A stretch of 64,000 nt of DNA from Leptotrichia wadei (GTDB taxonomy: Bacteria; Fusobacteriota; Fusobacteriia; Fusobacteriales; Leptotrichiaceae). The stretch is from contig NZ_AP019841.1 of the NCBI RefSeq assembly GCF_007990445.1, positions 992,001 to 1,056,000 on the forward strand, read 5' to 3'. Below, in pieces: positions 2,432 through 28,964 of the stretch (position 1 is the stretch's first letter; each line of letters begins with the position of its first letter). The translations under genes were made by a program, and so were the position numbers. Below the pieces are notes generated by a model that was given only the letters and a program-made list of their open reading frames with translations, ran no database searches and had not been told where the DNA came from.

Positions 2432-2473
2432 GTTAACAAAAAATAAATTATGAATAGATATAAGGAGAAAGAA

Positions 2474-4051
2474 GTGGCAAATACAAAAGAATCAAATGAA
2501 ACGGCACAAAGAGCAGAATTGCATCGTAAAATCTGGGCAATTGCAGATAATGTGCGTGGAGCGGTAGATGGTTGGGATTTTAAACAGTATATTTTGGGAA
2601 TATTATTTTATAGATTTATTTCGGAAAATATGACAGAATTTTTCAATAAAGCAGAACATGAAGCTGGAGATTTGGAGTTTAATTATGCGGATATTTCTGA
2701 TGAAGAAGCTGAAGAAGATTTTAGAGCTGGTACTGTGGAAGATAAAGGATTTTTTATTTTACCAAGTCAACTTTTTGAAAATGTAGTAAAAACAGCGAGA
2801 ACCAATGAAAATTTGAATACAGATTTAGCAAATATTTTTAAAGCTATTGAAGCAAGTGCTGTTGGATTTGAGTCGGAAGATGATATTAAAGGATTATTTG
2901 AAGATGTCGATACTACGAGTAATCGTTTAGGTGGAACGGTTGCTGAAAAAAATACAAGATTAGCAGATATTTTAACAGGAATTTCTGAAATTAATTTTGG
3001 AAGTTTTCAGCATAATGATATAGATGCTTTTGGAGATGCGTATGAATATCTAATTTCAAATTATGCCAGCAATGCTGGTAAGTCAGGAGGAGAATTTTTT
3101 ACACCGCAAACAGTTTCTAAACTTCTGGCAAGACTTGTAATGGAAGGAAAAGAAAATATCAATAAAGTATACGATCCGACATGTGGAAGTGGTTCTTTAT
3201 TACTTCAAATGAAAAAGCAGTTTGAGGAACATATTATTGATGAGGGATTTTTTGGACAGGAAATAAACATGACTAACTTTAACTTGGCTCGTATGAATAT
3301 GTTTTTACACAATGTAAACTACAATAATTTTTCAATAAAACGTGGAGATACCTTACTTAATCCATTACATAATGATGAAAAACCTTTTGATGCGATTGTT
3401 TCAAATCCGCCGTATTCGATTAAATGGATAGGAGACGGAGATCCGACACTTATTAATGATGAACGATTTGCACCAGCAGGAAAACTTGCTCCAAAATCTT
3501 ATGCAGATTATGCGTTTATAATGCATTCATTAAGTTATTTGTCAAGCAAAGGAAGAGCAGCAATAGTATGTTTTCCAGGTATTTTTTATAGAAAAGGTTC
3601 AGAAAAAATCATTCGTAAATATTTAGTAGACAATAATTTTGTAGATTGTGTAATACAGCTTCCAGAAAACCTGTTTTTTGGAACATCAATAGCGACTTGT
3701 ATTTTAGTAATGGCAAAGAATAAGACAGAAAATAAAACGTTATTTATTGATGCAAGTAAGGAATTTAAGAAAGAAACGAATAATAATATTTTGCAACCTG
3801 AAAATATTGAAAAAATAGTAAGCGAATTTAGAGAAAAAACTGATGTAGAATATTTTGCAAGATTGGTTGATAATAGTGAAATAGCTGAAAATGACTATAA
3901 TTTGTCAGTTTCAACTTATGTGGAAAAGGAAGATACTCGTGAAAAAATAGATATCGATGTGTTGAATAAGGAAATTGAGGAAACAGTAAAAAGAATAGAT
4001 GAATTAAGGGCTTCTATAAATGAGATAGTGAAGGAGCTTGAAAGTGAATAA
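2474..4051 (+). CDS. hsdM: Type I restriction-modification system, DNA methyltransferase subunit HsdM
   Basis: HsdM makes N6-adenine methylations as part of the HsdM2S complex. The N-terminal helical domain ([20 protein letters not shown], then [18 protein letters not shown]) is typical. The SAM-binding motif [13 protein letters not shown] and the catalytic NPPY motif ([10 protein letters not shown]) are both intact. The C-terminal helix ([20 protein letters not shown]) is the part that contacts HsdS. The start chosen is GTG at 2474, preceded 6 bases upstream by AAGGAG. An in-frame ATG at 2450 has no ribosome site. It is the first gene of hsdM-hsdS-hsdR, resembling EcoR124-type (type IC) systems. 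Confidence 0.95.
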
Positions 4052-4162
4052 GTAAGCAATATTGTGGGTGGGAATTTGTAAAATGTGGTAAAAGACTCTT
4101 CTGTTGATTGCCACTCGACAAAATAAAATTGAGGGAAAACGACTAAAAGAGGGAGAGAAATA

Positions 4163-6064
4163 ATGAAATTTATGGAAAAACTTTTAGTGGGGGAAAAGGT
4201 TGAGTGGAAGAAATTGGGGGAAGTTTGTGAAATTTTAGATAATAAAAGAAAACCTATTGCGAAAAAAGATAGGATAATAGGAACATATCCGTATTATGGT
4301 GCAAATGGAATACAGAGTTTTGTTAATAATTATATATTTGATGGAAGTTTCATTTTAATGGGAGAAGATGGAAGTGTAATCAATAAAGATAAAAGTCCAG
4401 TATTACATTGGATAAACAACAAAAAAATATGGGTAAATAATCACGCTCATGTTTTAGGTCAATTGAATATAAGATATAATTTAAAATATATCTACTATTA
4501 TTTATCAATAGTGGATGTTTCGTCTATTGTAAAAGGCACTCCACCTAAAATAAATCAAGCAAATATGAAAGAAATAAAAATTCCAATTCCTTCACTAGAA
4601 ATACAAGAAAAAATTGTAAAAATACTTGACAATTTCACAAAATGTGTTACAGAATTACAGGCAGAATTACAGGCAGAATTACAGGCAAGAAATAAGCAGT
4701 ATAACTATTATAGAGATATGTTGTTAAGTGAAGATTATTTGAATAAAATTTCTAAAAAGATTTATGAAATCGAAGAAAATAGAACACTTGCATTAGTACC
4801 AATTAAAGAAGTTTGTATAAGACAAAGGGGATTTAGTATAACAGCTGGTGAAATGAAGGAAATTCATAAAGACAATGCTCCAATTAAAATATTTGCAGGT
4901 GGAAAAACAACAGCAAATATAGATGAGTATAATATTGATAAAAAATATATAATTAAAAAACCAAGTATCATAGTGAAATCACGTGGGAATATAGATTTTG
5001 AATTTTATGATAAACCTTTTTCTCATAAAAATGAATTATGGTCTTACTCATCAAATGATGATAATATATTAAATATAAAATATTTATATTATTATTTGAA
5101 AAAAAATATAAAATATTTTGAAGATAAAGCAATATCAGGGAAATTACCTCAAATATCAACAGGCATTACTGATAATTATAAAATTTGGCTGCCTTCTATT
5201 ATTATCCAAAATAAAATTGTAAAAATTTTAGATAGATTTCAGGAACTTCTTTCTGATACAAAAGGACTACTTCCTTTGGAAATAGAGCAAAGAAGAAAAC
5301 AATATGAATATTATCGAGAAAAACTCTTGACATTTGATAAAGAAGAAGGGTATGCTTTAAGCACAGCACAGCACAGCACAGCACAGCACAGCACAGCACA
5401 GCGGCAAATAACGAGTGAATTTTTTGAATTACTTAAAGAAGCAGCAAAAATTGCTGGCGTTGATGTAAGTGATAAAGTCGAGTGGAAAACATTAAATGAA
5501 ATATTTAATACAAGAACAGGATATACACCTTCAAGAAAAAAAATGTCTTATTGGGAAAATGGTGTTATAAATTGGTTTACAATAGAAGATATTCGTCAGA
5601 GAGGAAGAAGTTTAGATTTTGCAAATGTAAAAATTTCAGAATCTGGAGTGAAAAAAGAGGTATTTAAAAGTAATTCAATGGTGTTATCTATAATCGGAAC
5701 GATTGGAGAATATGCTTTAATAAAAACAGATTTTGTAATTAATCAGCAATTTATGGTATTTACTTTAAAAGATAATTATTTAGATTTTATAAATATGGAA
5801 TTTTTAAAATATTATTTTAGTAAAATTTCAAACTATTGTACAAGAAATATTAGAAAATCAAGTATTCCAACGATTGATATAGATGGAATTCTAAGAATAA
5901 AAATCCCATTACCATCATTAGCGGTACAAAAACACATCGTATCAATTTTAGATAAATTTGATGTTTTAGTTAATGATTTATCACAGGGTTTACCAAAAGA
6001 AATAGCCTTAAGACAAAAACAGTATGAATATTACAGGGAAAAATTATTGAATTTTGAAAAATAG
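4163..6064 (+). CDS. hsdS: Type I restriction-modification specificity subunit HsdS, three target-recognition domains
   Basis: HsdS chooses the DNA target. At 633 residues it is about half as long again as a normal HsdS (about 400). It contains three TRD-plus-conserved-helix modules: residues about 10-190 (starting VEWKKLGEVCEIL), about 205-395 (starting LVPIKEVCIRQRGF) and about 430-633 (starting VEWKTLNEIFNTRTGYTP). Each ends with the same helical motif, seen as NKQYNYYRDMLL, RKQYEYYREKLL and QKQYEYYREKLL. A 12-bp repeat lies in the first spacer helix. A (GCACA)8 tract lies between modules two and three and reads STAQHSTAQHSTAQ. If the tract changes by a number of units that is not a multiple of three, translation stops within 20 bases after it and leaves a two-TRD protein of normal size. 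The gene sits 111 bases after hsdM with a purine-rich leader. Confidence 0.93.
   Translation: MKFMEKLLVGEKVEWKKLGEVCEILDNKRKPIAKKDRIIGTYPYYGANGIQSFVNNYIFDGSFILMGEDGSVINKDKSPVLHWINNKKIWVNNHAHVLGQLNIRYNLKYIYYYLSIVDVSSIVKGTPPKINQANMKEIKIPIPSLEIQEKIVKILDNFTKCVTELQAELQAELQARNKQYNYYRDMLLSEDYLNKISKKIYEIEENRTLALVPIKEVCIRQRGFSITAGEMKEIHKDNAPIKIFAGGKTTANIDEYNIDKKYIIKKPSIIVKSRGNIDFEFYDKPFSHKNELWSYSSNDDNILNIKYLYYYLKKNIKYFEDKAISGKLPQISTGITDNYKIWLPSIIIQNKIVKILDRFQELLSDTKGLLPLEIEQRRKQYEYYREKLLTFDKEEGYALSTAQHSTAQHSTAQRQITSEFFELLKEAAKIAGVDVSDKVEWKTLNEIFNTRTGYTPSRKKMSYWENGVINWFTIEDIRQRGRSLDFANVKISESGVKKEVFKSNSMVLSIIGTIGEYALIKTDFVINQQFMVFTLKDNYLDFINMEFLKYYFSKISNYCTRNIRKSSIPTIDIDGILRIKIPLPSLAVQKHIVSILDKFDVLVNDLSQGLPKEIALRQKQYEYYREKLLNFEK
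4651..4686 (+). repeat. hsdS: 12-bp tandem repeat in HsdS spacer helix (3 exact copies)
   Basis: AGAATTACAGGC is repeated three times exactly, coding for a run of LQAE tetrapeptides. In EcoR124I-type HsdS proteins a TAEL-type tetrapeptide repeat at the same place sets the spacer length in the recognised DNA site. Copy-number change here would keep the frame. Confidence 0.9.
5361..5402 (+). repeat. hsdS: Pentanucleotide phase-variation tract (GCACA)8 in hsdS
   Basis: Eight exact GCACA units (5361-5400) plus GC. The unit is not a multiple of three, so gain or loss of a unit shifts the frame. The two other frames stop at 5409-5411 (TAA) and 5416-5418 (TGA). This is the structure of a slipped-strand contingency tract. 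Confidence 0.92.
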
Positions 6065-6101: not shown

Positions 6102-9100
6102 ATGTCGGAAAAAAGTGCGATTTATGAAAGATCAACAATTGCTGAGATGACAAATGGAATTATTTTAGCTAATTATGAAGAAATACTTCAAGTTCAAGAT
6201 ACATATCAGAGTGAAAAAGAACTTGAAGATGGGATGATAAGGGATTTAGAAAGTCAAGGGTATGAAAGATTTTATGGGAAGACATCAGAGGAACTTTATA
6301 AAAATTTGAAGGTTCAAATTGAAAGATTAAATAAAGTTGCTTTTACAGATAAAGAATGGGAAAGATTTTTAGTGGAATATCTTGATTGTCCAAATGACGG
6401 AATGATTGAGAAAACTAGGAAGATTCAGGAAAATTATATCTATGATTTTATTTTTGATGACGGACATTTGAAAAATATAAAAATTATTGATAAAAAAAAT
6501 ATACATAATAATATTTTACAGGTTTGTAATCAAATTAAGCAAAAAGGTAAGCATAAAAATCGTTATGATGTAACGATATTAGTTAATGGATTGCCACTTG
6601 TTCATATAGAATTGAAAAAACGTGGAGTAAGTCTTCATGAGGCATTTAATCAGATCCATAGATATAGTAAGGAAAGTTTCAATAATGAAAATTCACTTTA
6701 TAAATTTGTTCAGATTTTTGTAATTTCAAATGGGACTTATACTCGTTATTTTGCAAATACTACGGCACAGAATAAAAATCATTATGAATTTACATGTGAG
6801 TGGGCAGATGCGAAAAATAAAGTTATTAGAGATCTTAAAGATTTTACAGCAACATTTTTTGAAAAGCGAACTATTTTAGAAGTTTTGACAAAATATTGTG
6901 TTTTTGATTCAAATGATATTTTGCTAATAATGCGACCGTATCAAATAGCAGCAACTGAACGAATTTTGTGGAAGATAGAATCCAGTTATCAAAATAAGAA
7001 ATGTGGTAAAATTGAAGCTGGAGGATTTATTTGGCATACTACAGGTTCAGGAAAAACTTTGACTTCTTTTAAAACGGCAAAACTTGCTACAGAACTTGAA
7101 TATATTGATAAAGTGTTTTTTGTGGTTGATAGAAAAGACTTGGATTATCAGACAATGAAGGAATATCAGAAATTTCAGCCTGATAGTGTAAATGGTAGTA
7201 AAGATACAAAAGAACTTAAACGAAGTATTGAAAAACAGGATAACAAAATAGTTGTTACGACAATCCAAAAATTAAATGAATTTGTCAAAAAAAATCCAAG
7301 CCATGAAATTTACGATAAACATTGTGTTATAATTTATGATGAATGTCATCGTTCTCAATTTGGAGACGCACAAAAAAATATTAGGAAATCTTTTAAAAAT
7401 TATTATCAGTTTGGATTTACAGGAACACCAATTTTTCCTGAAAATGCTCTTGGAAGTGATACAACAGCTGGAATTTTTGGAGCTCAATTACATAGTTATG
7501 TTATAACAGATGCTATTCGTGATAAAAAGGTTTTAAAATTTAAAGTGGATTATAATGATATTAGGGCAAAATTTAAAGCGGCTGAAGCAGAAACAGATGA
7601 TAAAAAGCTCAAGGAACTTGAAAAAAGAATGTTGTTACATCCTGAGAGAATTTCTAAAATAGTAGAATATATTTTAAAAGTATATAATACAAAAACTCAT
7701 AGAAATGAATACTATAATATAAAACAGAAACGGCTAAACGGTTTTAATGCTATGTTTGCTGTTCAAAGTGTAGAAGCTGCAAAACTTTATTATGAAGAAT
7801 TTCAAAAACAGCAAGAAAATTTGCCTGAAGAAAAAAGACTGAAAGTAGCGACAATTTATAGTTTTGCTGCGAATGAAGAGCGAAATGCGATAGGAGATAT
7901 TCCTGATGAAAATTTTGAGCCAAGTGCAATGGAATCGACAGCGAAAGAATTTTTGGATAAAGTAATATCTGATTATAACGATTATTTTAAAACAAATTTT
8001 TCAACAAATGGAAGTGAATTTCAGAATTATTATAAAGATTTGTCTAAAAAGGTTAAGGATAAAAAAATTGATATTTTAATTGTTGTGGGAATGTTTTTGA
8101 CAGGATTTGATGCACCAACATTAAATACTTTGTTTGTTGATAAAAATTTGAGATACCATGGATTAATTCAAGCGTTTTCAAGAACAAACCGTATTTTGAA
8201 TAAAGTTAAAACTTTTGGAAATATTGTATGTTTTAGAGATTTGGAAAAGGCTACAAAAAATGCTATTAAAACTTTTGGAGATGAAAATAGTGTAAATATA
8301 ATTCTTGAAAAAAGTTATAACGACTATATAAAGGGATTTAAAGATGAGGAAACAGGAAAATCAATAAAAGGATATGTAAGTTTATGTAATGAAATAGTTG
8401 AAAAATTTCCAAAGCCTGTTGAAATTGAAAAAACTCAAGATAAAAAGGAATTTGTAGAATTATTTGGAGAATTGCTTAAAACAGAAAATATACTTAAAAA
8501 TTTCGATGAATTTGAAAATTTTGAGAAAATTATATCTGATAGACAAATGCAGGATATGAAGAGTGTTTATGTGGATATTTGTGAAGAAATAAGAAATGCT
8601 GGAAAAGATGATAGTAACGAAGAAGGAATTGATTTTTCTGATATTGAATTTCAAATTGATTTACTTAAAACAGATGAAATTAATTTAGATTATATTTTAG
8701 AGTTAATTTTAGAAAAGACAAAAGAACATGATGATATTGAAACATTAAAATCTGAAATAAGAAGAGTTATACGTACAAGTTTAGGAACTAGAGCGAAAGA
8801 AAATTTAGTTATAAATTTTATTAACAAAACAGATTTAAAAAAATTGAAAAATAATGGAGAAATTCTTGATGCTTTTTATAAATACGCAAAAGAAGAAAAG
8901 AAGGAAAAAATTGATGAATTAGTTAAAGATGAGAATTTAAAGGAAGATTCTAGAAGATTTATTGAAAAATCCATAAATAAAGGTTTTGTTGATTATGCTG
9001 GTTCTGAATTAGATAGTATTCTTCCACCAACTTCACGAAGAAAAGGGGCAAGAGAGGCTAAAAAACAATCTGTATTAGAGAAAATACAGAAAATGGTAGA

Positions 9101-9119
9101 AATTTTTATAGGAATATAA
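6102..9119 (+). CDS. hsdR: Type I restriction-modification system, restriction/translocation subunit HsdR
   Basis: HsdR is the ATP-driven translocase and endonuclease of the complex. At 1005 residues it has the usual length. The N-terminal PD-(D/E)XK nuclease is visible as D156 (YDVTIL), E170-x-K172 (HIELKKRG) and a following QIHRY motif. The helicase has motif I TTGSGKT near residue 314, motif II DECH near 412 and motif III FTGTP. The late motif with VGMFLTGFDAP and the segment LIQAFSRTNRI match motifs V and VI. The C-terminal helical region binds HsdM. No frame disruption is seen, so the system looks functional. It is 37 bases after hsdS with a ribosome site AAGGAAG. Confidence 0.96.
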   Translation: MSEKSAIYERSTIAEMTNGIILANYEEILQVQDTYQSEKELEDGMIRDLESQGYERFYGKTSEELYKNLKVQIERLNKVAFTDKEWERFLVEYLDCPNDGMIEKTRKIQENYIYDFIFDDGHLKNIKIIDKKNIHNNILQVCNQIKQKGKHKNRYDVTILVNGLPLVHIELKKRGVSLHEAFNQIHRYSKESFNNENSLYKFVQIFVISNGTYTRYFANTTAQNKNHYEFTCEWADAKNKVIRDLKDFTATFFEKRTILEVLTKYCVFDSNDILLIMRPYQIAATERILWKIESSYQNKKCGKIEAGGFIWHTTGSGKTLTSFKTAKLATELEYIDKVFFVVDRKDLDYQTMKEYQKFQPDSVNGSKDTKELKRSIEKQDNKIVVTTIQKLNEFVKKNPSHEIYDKHCVIIYDECHRSQFGDAQKNIRKSFKNYYQFGFTGTPIFPENALGSDTTAGIFGAQLHSYVITDAIRDKKVLKFKVDYNDIRAKFKAAEAETDDKKLKELEKRMLLHPERISKIVEYILKVYNTKTHRNEYYNIKQKRLNGFNAMFAVQSVEAAKLYYEEFQKQQENLPEEKRLKVATIYSFAANEERNAIGDIPDENFEPSAMESTAKEFLDKVISDYNDYFKTNFSTNGSEFQNYYKDLSKKVKDKKIDILIVVGMFLTGFDAPTLNTLFVDKNLRYHGLIQAFSRTNRILNKVKTFGNIVCFRDLEKATKNAIKTFGDENSVNIILEKSYNDYIKGFKDEETGKSIKGYVSLCNEIVEKFPKPVEIEKTQDKKEFVELFGELLKTENILKNFDEFENFEKIISDRQMQDMKSVYVDICEEIRNAGKDDSNEEGIDFSDIEFQIDLLKTDEINLDYILELILEKTKEHDDIETLKSEIRRVIRTSLGTRAKENLVINFINKTDLKKLKNNGEILDAFYKYAKEEKKEKIDELVKDENLKEDSRRFIEKSINKGFVDYAGSELDSILPPTSRRKGAREAKKQSVLEKIQKMVEIFIGI

Positions 9120-26729: not shown

Positions 26730-28964
26730 ATGAATGAGTTAATACCAATAGAAGATATGAATTATCTTGCACAACAATCACAAGGGAAAATAAATATGAT
26801 TTTATCAGGAATGACAGCATTGATGAATGATACAGAAGATAAAACAGAAAAGATGGAGAAACAAAATTGGTTTCAAAGAATGGTAAAAACTGTAACAGGA
26901 AAAAATAGAGCAACAAGAGAAGAAATAAAACAGAATCATGATAAATTAAATGCTTATATGTCGCAAGCAATAGCTGAATTATACAATAGAAACTGTATTG
27001 ATAGTCAAGTAATGATAAGTTTAGGAACACAGTTGAATGAACTTTATGCAGAACATTTGCAATTAAAACAAATGTTGGGAGCTTTTGTAGTAAAATTAAA
27101 TGAAAAAATAGACAGTGTAGATAATTTTCACATGTTAAATACTGAAATTGAACAAGGTGTTTATTCTGATAATGAAAAAATAATCGCAATATGTAAAGTA
27201 ATGTCGCAATTTGATAACAGAATAATGGAAGAACCTAGAAAACTTGATATTTTAAGAAGAAGTATGGAAAAACAGGAAATTATTACAGAAGATGAAGTTT
27301 TATTGACTGATTATTTAATGGATATTATGAATATTTCAGTAGATGAAATAGGGAAAATATATCTTGAATTATCAACAATTAGAAATGATTTTTTTGCTAA
27401 TTTAATTTTAGGAGTAATTGAAGACTACCATTTTCTTCCAGATATGCAAAGAAAAATGATGAAAAAGGAAAAAATAATAGAAAACCTTATTCAAAGAGAA
27501 AGGTTGGATGATACTATTACGTTATCTATAAATGAAGTTTATGATAATTTTATAAATAGTAAAATTGAAGTAAAAGAAGGATTAATACCTGTTGAATCAA
27601 TTCAAAATCAAAGAGGAAATCAAATAAGCTATAATAATAACGATAATTTAGAAATGAAAAGGGCAGAACAATTATTTCTTAATTATAAACTAGCTGAAGC
27701 ATTTGAATTATTTAAGAAACTTGCTGAGGATGATAATGGAAGAGCAATGTACTTTTTAGGTGAATTTTATAGTAATTCGATTGGAAAAATAAAATTAGAT
27801 GAAAAGAAAGGAAAAGAATGGAGAATAAAAGGTAAGGAATCAGGAGATGTTTTAGCAGCTTTAAATGTGGCTTATTCTTTACCTGAAGATTCAGATGAAG
27901 CAAACAGAATTTTCTTTGAATTATATGAAGATGTTTTAAAATTAGCTGAAGATGGAGATATTTTTGCTCAGAATGAATTGGCAGATATGTATTTGTATGG
28001 TCATGGAATAGAAGAGGATGAAGAAGAAGGTGTAAAATGGTTGAAAAAATCGGCTGATGCAGGACATTGGAGATCAATAATGGACTTAGCAGATCGTTAT
28101 TCTGATGGAGTAGGAGTGTTACAAGATGAATTAAAAGCTATAGATTTATATAAAAAAGTTTATGAATTAGGATTAGGGGAAGCAGCAAATAGAATAGGAC
28201 TTATATATGACAATCAAAATAATTCAGAAGAAGCAGTCAAATGGTTCAGAAAAGGATTTGATAAAGGGCATGATTGGTCAGGTTGTAATTTAGCAGATTA
28301 TTATTCTGATGGAATAGGGGTACCACAAGACAAACAAAAAGCTTTAGAATTGTATAAAAAAGTTTACGAATTAGGAGGTTCGGCTTCAGGGAAAGCAGCA
28401 AATAGAATAGGACTTATATATGATGACAATCAAAATAATTCAGAAGAAGCAGTAAAATGGTATAGAAAAGGATTTGATAAAGGGTATGATTGGTCAGGTT
28501 GTAATTTAGCACTTTCTTATTCTAATGGGACAGGAGTACCACAAGACAAACAAAAAGCTTTAGAATTGTATAAAAAAGTTTACGAATTAGGAGATTCAGC
28601 TTCAGGAGAAGCTGCATATAGAGTAGGAGCAGTATATGTAGAGCGAAAAGAATTTAAAGAAGCATACAAGTGGTATAAAAAATCTTTAGAACACGGGGTT
28701 GAAAAAATAGAAGAGATAGATTATTTTTTAGCCCAAATAGAACATAATTTAGCTATGAAGGAACAATTAAAAGCTACAGAAGAAGTAACACAAGCACTTC
28801 AGGATTTTAATGAAACACCTTGGGATATGAAAAAACAACAAATTGTAGAAGAAAAAGAACGAATAGCAGAAGAAAAACAACGAATTGCAGAAGAAAAACA
28901 ACGAATTGCGGAAGAAAAACAACGAATTGCGGAAGAAAAACATCGAATTGCGGAAGAAAAATGA
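26730..28964 (+). CDS. Sel1-repeat protein with helical N-terminus and heptad-repeat tail
   Basis: A 744-residue protein in three parts. Residues about 1-300 are an unrecognised helical domain (AELYNRNCIDSQVMISLGTQ, LKQMLGAFVVKLNEKI). Residues about 310-690 hold Sel1/TPR-like repeats (GRAMYFLGEFYSN, AQNELADMYLYGHGIEEDEE, GVKWLKKSADAGHWRSIMDL), a fold for protein-protein contacts. Residues about 700-744 are a perfect heptad run of the unit EEKQRIA, likely a long charged helix. Two of the Sel1 blocks are almost identical at the DNA level. It follows the glycine-rich membrane protein gene by 21 bases, with AGGAG before the ATG. The joint role is unknown. Confidence 0.78.
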   Translation: MNELIPIEDMNYLAQQSQGKINMILSGMTALMNDTEDKTEKMEKQNWFQRMVKTVTGKNRATREEIKQNHDKLNAYMSQAIAELYNRNCIDSQVMISLGTQLNELYAEHLQLKQMLGAFVVKLNEKIDSVDNFHMLNTEIEQGVYSDNEKIIAICKVMSQFDNRIMEEPRKLDILRRSMEKQEIITEDEVLLTDYLMDIMNISVDEIGKIYLELSTIRNDFFANLILGVIEDYHFLPDMQRKMMKKEKIIENLIQRERLDDTITLSINEVYDNFINSKIEVKEGLIPVESIQNQRGNQISYNNNDNLEMKRAEQLFLNYKLAEAFELFKKLAEDDNGRAMYFLGEFYSNSIGKIKLDEKKGKEWRIKGKESGDVLAALNVAYSLPEDSDEANRIFFELYEDVLKLAEDGDIFAQNELADMYLYGHGIEEDEEEGVKWLKKSADAGHWRSIMDLADRYSDGVGVLQDELKAIDLYKKVYELGLGEAANRIGLIYDNQNNSEEAVKWFRKGFDKGHDWSGCNLADYYSDGIGVPQDKQKALELYKKVYELGGSASGKAANRIGLIYDDNQNNSEEAVKWYRKGFDKGYDWSGCNLALSYSNGTGVPQDKQKALELYKKVYELGDSASGEAAYRVGAVYVERKEFKEAYKWYKKSLEHGVEKIEEIDYFLAQIEHNLAMKEQLKATEEVTQALQDFNETPWDMKKQQIVEEKERIAEEKQRIAEEKQRIAEEKQRIAEEKHRIAEEK
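28182..28592 (+). repeat. Tandem 213-bp duplication inside Sel1 region
   Basis: The segment from 28182 recurs from 28395 with few differences (one added GAT codon and scattered changes). The period is 71 codons, equal to two Sel1 units, which indicates a recent in-frame duplication. Confidence 0.85.
28848..28961 (+). repeat. 21-bp heptad repeat at 3' end of Sel1 gene
   Basis: Five full and one partial copies of a 21-base unit coding for EEKQRIA. The unit keeps the frame, so the tail can vary in length without loss of the gene. Confidence 0.9.

Follow-up and report, generated by a model that had tools for sequence, protein, structure and literature searches.

A third target-recognition domain that is probably gated by a (GCACA)n tract in a type IC hsdS gene of Leptotrichia wadei

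Within the window, by which we mean the whole 64,000-nucleotide stretch of Leptotrichia wadei DNA analysed here, a non-triplet simple repeat lies inside the open reading frame (ORF) of a type I restriction-modification specificity gene (hsdS, 4163–6064) and sets the reading frame by its length. The question this raises is whether the tract merely shuts the enzyme off or decides how many DNA-reading modules its specificity subunit carries. An earlier reading, made without database searches (the sequence-only reading), had proposed that the gene encodes three target-recognition domain (TRD) modules, that the GCACA tract lies exactly between modules two and three, that the other two frames stop at 5409–5411 and 5416–5418, and that a change of one or two units would give a two-module HsdS of about 415 residues. 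Three Methylase_S stretches and the position of the tract bear out the first two claims, the stops were confirmed exactly, and the last claim held in silico (411–427 aa). We consider it likely, with a probability of roughly 0.72, that this is a type IC locus with a phase-variable HsdS gated by (GCACA)n, whilst tract slippage and the methylation outcome are inferred.

A complete type IC locus with a frame-setting tract

The type I set is complete, with hsdM upstream of hsdS and hsdR downstream, and its features are as follows.

2450–4051, + strand: hsdM, methyltransferase subunit, 533 aa (N6_Mtase, HsdM_N; TIGR00497 at 699.6 bits against a cut-off of 243)
4163–6064, + strand: hsdS, three-module specificity subunit, 633 aa, fused in the present frame (ORF; three Methylase_S stretches)
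4196–4684, + strand: module 1, TRD1 and the start of CR1 (Methylase_S match G000:C1:996196-996684; aligns to EcoR124I TRD1-CR1)
4650–4687, + strand: 12-bp in-frame array, (CAGAATTACAGG)3.2, giving QAEL repeats in CR1 (TRF)
4796–5287, + strand: module 2, TRD2 followed by a CR2 of the '..LLSDTKGLLPxEIEQRxKQYEYYREKLLTF' type (Methylase_S match; CR type)
5360–5402, + strand: pentanucleotide tract (AGCAC)8.6 = (GCACA)8, putative frame switch (TRF; frame reading)
5409–5418, + strand: stops of the two non-fused frames just past the tract, TAA at 5409–5411 and TGA at 5416–5418
5405–5476, + strand: module-3 linker, ..FFELLKEAAKIAGVDVSDKVEWK.., conserved across phyla (alignments A1/A2; scan of genome contigs)
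5477–6004, + strand: module 3, TRD3 and CR3, the CR3 helix running to about 6049 (Methylase_S at 104.5 bits; AlphaFold; Foldseek)
6102–9119, + strand: hsdR, restriction/translocase subunit of the EcoR124 (type IC) family (EcoR124_C, SWI2_SNF2, HSDR_N; TIGR00348)

The whole HsdS protein matched Methylase_S (Pfam) with an E-value of 1.1e-72. Since hsdM precedes hsdS, which in turn is followed by an hsdR whose product matches EcoR124_C (197 bits), we assign the locus to type IC. The usual type IC criterion of a two-TRD HsdS is not met in the present frame, which gives three modules, and is met only in the other frames. The array at 4650–4687, which the sequence-only reading had overlooked, supplies another hallmark of the type, the 12-bp (xAEL) repeats found between TRD1 and TRD2. 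Relatives carry one to three ELQ units in CR1 and, because the unit is 12 bp long, the array keeps the frame. Central repeats of the EcoR124 type alter spacer length (PMC3077401), so this array may add a further level of variation. It is an EcoR124-like spacer repeat and, as it leaves the frame intact, probably acts as a second dial that adjusts spacer length.

The GCACA tract is perfect; the (AGCAC)8.6 detected by TRF equals (GCACA)8 at 5361–5400, and no other such tract occurs anywhere in the genome. It lies past CR2 and not between TRD1 and TRD2. Reading the frames in silico, 5, 8, 11 or 14 units gave three-module proteins of 628, 633, 638 and 643 aa respectively, whilst 4, 6, 7, 9, 10, 12, 13 or 15 units gave two-module proteins of 411–427 aa. 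The three TRDs of the window all differ from one another, TRD2 and TRD3 sharing only 28% identity over 82 aa (E = 0.007).

The third module and its junction repeat in relatives

A referee may ask whether module 3 is a TRD at all, and this had been set as a test that could refute the three-module reading; it did not. Besides its Pfam match, an AlphaFold model of module 3 built with 39 relatives reached a mean pLDDT of 88.4, and its best PDB matches in Foldseek were HsdS subunits, EcoR124I among them. TRDs are also shared across positions: the window TRD3 matches TRD1 of a relative (G012) at 82.5%, TRD3 of an Erysipelotrichaceae MAG (L090) matches TRD1 of L094 at 78%, and TRD3 of G021 matches TRD2 of L090 at 72%. 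Module 3 is thus a genuine TRD. From its likeness to EcoR124I TRD1 (176.7 bits), TRD3 of Peptoniphilus obesi is predicted to read GAA. Module 3 is also under purifying selection, with dN/dS values of 0.20 (G010/G014) and 0.13 (G050/G070). Comparison of the loci revealed no start codon with an accompanying ribosome-binding site that is conserved ahead of module 3, and in the window, Leptotrichia hongkongensis and Peptoniphilus the stretch from tract to TRD contains no start codon at all. The absence of a conserved start led us to reject an independent half-HsdS gene for module 3 and, together with purifying selection, suggests that the module is probably read only when fused. We therefore regard it as a functional TRD open to exchange, whose expression is most probably confined to the in-frame state.

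In order to find relatives we examined 33 genomes of the family and used the module-3 linker to scan 84,980 species genomes. There was one genome per species, giving no tract lengths within a species or a culture, and some relatives are MAGs, in which repeat lengths and binning are less dependable. The three-module architecture with a gating repeat was found at 16 intact loci in Fusobacteriota, Bacillota and one Pasteurellaceae isolate, of which six are fused and ten split, near the one third expected for a random frame. Fused alleles are those of the window, G010 (AGAAC x17), G021 ((GCCT)7), a Eubacteriales MAG ((AC)8, 612 aa), a Clostridia MAG ((AGAC)5.8) and a Gemella sp. ((AGAC)14, 652 aa). 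Split alleles occur in L. hongkongensis JMUB5056 (G007; (GCACA)28, a 431-aa protein and then a separate third module), G014 (an interrupted tract, 422 aa plus a separate module), G020 ((AC)12.5), G050 ((GCCT)6), G070 ((ACACG)9), Gemella haemolysans and the Erysipelotrichaceae MAG (both (GCAC)3.2), Peptoniphilus obesi ((AAGC)3.5), an Ezakiella MAG ((AG)5) and Bisgaardia hudsonensis, the Pasteurellaceae isolate ((CAACG)19). GCACA itself was counted at 8, about 12 and 28 units across species. The proposal that tract length toggles the two- and three-module forms is supported by both states being natural alleles in relatives with this repeat. The fused (GCCT)7 and split (GCCT)6 alleles of G021 and G050 form a frame-consistent pair for another unit.

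Where comparison was possible HsdM was 81–99% identical to that of the window, so that these loci form a single clade which has crossed phyla. In outgroup systems, whose HsdM is about 65% identical, HsdS is of the plain two-TRD kind. In a control group of 73 HsdS module clusters lying near HsdM relatives on viral contigs, 61 were plain two-TRD single ORFs, and a scan of viral contigs with the module-3 linker and a CR2 DNA pattern gave no match. The plasmid S genes examined from a tblastn search, with matches merged along the query, were about 1.1 kb, the size of a plain two-TRD gene. One viral contig (L182:7954-9868) encodes a two-TRD HsdS (419 aa), after which (GACA)13 precedes a third module of 246 aa; its HsdM is 63% identical to that of the window and its TRD3 42% identical to the window TRD3, so a gated third TRD extends beyond the clade.

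The junction units differ by lineage (AC, AG, GCCT, AGAC, GCAC, AAGC, GCACA, AGAAC, ACACG and CAACG) and none is a multiple of three bases. Across 17 related hsdS loci, the 1,587 bp of module-2/3 junction held 16 perfect short tandem repeats and the other 30,690 bp only one, a clustering that far exceeds chance. Two loci had no junction repeat above threshold, namely the decayed copy in G012 and Ezakiella, whose (AG)5 just misses it. The window and G010 have HsdM proteins that are 99% identical, yet their tracts are GCACA x8 and AGAAC x17. That the unit turns over while position and non-triplet length stay is strong comparative evidence for selected instability. The short tracts of several loci (GCAC x3.2, AAGC x3.5, AG x5) may be locked.

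Several neighbouring arrangements were recorded alongside. The G012 copy (L066) has a truncated hsdM, a split hsdR, a broken module 3 and a junction without a repeat. In G009 (L105) an intact hsdM, 93% identical to that of the window, has no adjoining hsdS and ORFs of 314 and 1359 aa come next. In a related genus (G002, L114, 4534–5670 in the reversed locus) only some 180 residues of hsdM are left, with a TnpB-like ORF next to them, and a similar TnpB-like ORF adjoins the intact locus of G014. In most relatives hsdM and hsdS are separated by a gene that scores to the RhuM/DinD-like PADLOC candidate family PDC-S05 (L061:2668-3681, with equivalents in L063, L064, L088, L089, L090 and L093); it is missing from the window (4052–4162), G010 and G014.

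Proposed mechanism and rival explanations

The conserved regions (CRs) are position-specific across phyla, with mean identities of 84% for CR2/CR2, 79% for CR3/CR3 and 61% for CR2/CR3. EcoR124I TRD1-CR1 aligns with module 1, and the alignment of EcoR124I TRD2-CR2 with module 3 scores 105.6 bits; the C-terminal CR of EcoR124I is 66% identical to CR3 versus 54% to CR2. Because EcoR124I aligns to modules 1 and 3, it looks as if a type IC HsdS had received TRD2-CR2 and the repeat between its two halves, an inference from alignment which we regard as the simplest reading. Under such an insertion the two-module product would end on CR2 and the fused product would restore the canonical C-terminal half. 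An alignment that mixed fused, two-module and half proteins (A3) seemed to pair CR2 with CR3 and was dropped. A structure model of the full three-module protein (pLDDT 54.7, 6 sequences) was too poor to show which modules pair.

In the mechanism that we propose, slippage in (GCACA)n would shift the reading frame. When n leaves a remainder of 2 on division by 3, as with the present eight units, translation would read through the linker to give TRD1-CR1-TRD2-CR2-TRD3-CR3, and with any other n a stop codon no more than about 20 bp past the tract would leave a complete, normal-sized TRD1-CR1-TRD2-CR2 HsdS. The two-module form would read DNA with TRD1 and TRD2, and fusion would offer a pair containing TRD3. 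By inference this pair would most likely be TRD1 with TRD3, favoured because CR1 and CR3 match the two halves of EcoR124I, or possibly TRD2 with TRD3. As the TRDs of the window all differ, alternative pairings would give different motifs, and fusion would add or replace a methylation motif without turning the enzyme off. Our best guess is that the fused state has a second motif, since a three-TRD HsdS of Helicobacter pylori methylated two motifs (PMC3936762). Tract length thus decides between two and three DNA-reading modules, and cells could in this way randomly change which DNA sites are marked. The anatomy, the occurrence of both frame states in nature and the retention of a non-triplet repeat of changing unit at the junction are shown; tract slippage in L. 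wadei and altered methylation are inferred from sequence comparison. The earlier suggestion that specificity changes, instead of the system being merely shut off, likewise remains an inference in the absence of a methylome.

The most serious competitor, though an unlikely one in our view, is a plain on/off switch with one form alone active, either because TRD1 with TRD3 is the canonical enzyme and the two-module form is dead, or because module 3 blocks the enzyme. The alignment of EcoR124I to modules 1 and 3 and the closeness of CR3 to its C-terminal CR speak for it, as does an H. pylori HsdS variant in which another CR follows TRD2 and which methylated only one of two motifs (PMC3936762). Against it, the truncated form ends directly past a full CR2 (..KQYEYYREKLLTF), a normal HsdS end, no other CR is as well conserved across phyla as CR2, and TRD2 is open in nearly every locus. 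A silent-cassette store, in which module 3 would serve chiefly to donate TRDs to the first two positions and the repeat would be incidental, would fit the shifting of TRDs between positions among loci, which resembles domain movement in H. pylori (PMC3077401). Such a store, however, would require no frame switch, and ten different non-triplet units at one place and a CR3 that retains its position-specific sequence make it very improbable.

We give about as little credence to the module 3 of split loci being translated alone as a half-HsdS that would form a palindrome-reading dimer, like NgoAV HsdS1 or TRD3 of jhp1422. The latter is active alone as a presumed dimer (PMC3936762) and G014 has an in-frame TTG ahead of the TRD, but the missing start codons described above, both in three individual loci and as a feature conserved across loci, count against it. 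Sequencing or assembly artefact, or gene decay, can be all but dismissed: repeats are error-prone and the G012 relative is clearly decayed, yet the same design recurs in independent complete genomes and isolates, module 3 shows dN/dS of 0.13–0.20, and hsdM and hsdR are intact.

A bolder version of the preferred, phase-variable reading seems to us to have the balance of evidence narrowly on its side. It holds that a horizontally spread type IC clade, present in at least three phyla, carries a selected unstable junction that has been repeatedly rebuilt from unrelated units and gates a third TRD, so that one gene would yield either an enzyme with two TRDs or one with three TRDs and an added or different motif. 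Together with the EcoR124-style spacer repeat this would permit combinatorial control over the methylome with no need for additional hsdS copies.

Relation to known systems and further repeats

The locus resembles EcoR124I and EcoR124II (type IC) in its EcoR124_C-bearing HsdR, in having modules 1 and 3 to which TRD1-CR1 and TRD2-CR2 can be aligned, and in inter-TRD repeats that set spacer length (for the spacer effect, see PMC3077401). EcoR124I, in contrast, has two TRDs and no frame-shifting repeat, whereas the window HsdS has an extra TRD-CR and a non-triplet repeat between the halves. The sequence-only reading had likened the gene to NgoAV of Neisseria gonorrhoeae, where a repeat in hsdS also shifts the frame and alters specificity rather than simply shutting the system off, as we infer for the window. 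This likeness needs correcting, since NgoAV goes from one TRD to two and not from two to three (PMC9577141); its polyG tract switches between a one-TRD truncated HsdS and a fusion of two halves, and it has been described in one species. The view that a three-module form is unusual is likewise corrected by a functional precedent, Hpy99XV (jhp1422/jhp1423) of H. pylori J99, which has three TRD-CR modules in one chain and two methylation motifs, TRD1 with TRD3 and TRD2 with TRD3 yielding different sites (PMC3936762). Unlike the window gene with its three different TRDs, jhp1422 has identical TRD2 and TRD3 copies, thought to derive from recombination, and no repeat-controlled frame. In the H. pylori type IIG enzymes Hpy99XIV/HpyAXVI a frame switch also adds a C-terminal recognition domain and the motif changes (PMC3936762), but these are single-chain enzymes with a small extra domain and a homopolymer. 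Inverting multi-hsdS loci share phase-variable type I specificity (PMC7394358), although there recombination between duplicated hsdS genes does the switching, not repeat slippage.

A published survey reported repeats in 7.9% of hsdS genes (FASEB J 2020; cited in PMC7394358). The full-text literature searched, which did not cover that survey, nowhere described a third TRD gated by a repeat, and the survey may list individual members. Three-TRD HsdS and repeat-switched HsdS are each known separately, and a conserved switch from two to three appears to be new; it unites the two oddities in one conserved device across several phyla. The question of which TRDs pair in a three-TRD HsdS becomes directly testable, and HsdS proteins annotated as 'two-TRD plus fragment' or as 'fusion' may represent alternative phases of a single gene.

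Other repeats were seen in passing. At L090:3873-3880, in the Erysipelotrichaceae MAG, a (G)8 between CR1 and TRD2 throws module 2 out of frame; this is either a further, NgoAV-like switch within that gene or a MAG error. The CR1/TRD2 junction of other type IC hsdS genes carries (AAGC)n or (GCAA)n (L129 near 8244, L142 near 8183 and L153 near 8163, with 11.8, 9 and 4.5 units respectively), which would gate module 2 and thus one TRD versus two. At L172:7538-9893 four consecutive ORFs of one TRD module each lie beside a type I hsdM. Elsewhere in the window, a 744-aa ORF (26730–28964; repeat stretches 28086–28628 and 28831–28961) contains Sel1-like 216-bp repeats and, at its 3' end, a 21-bp array (KQRIAEE); copy number may vary.
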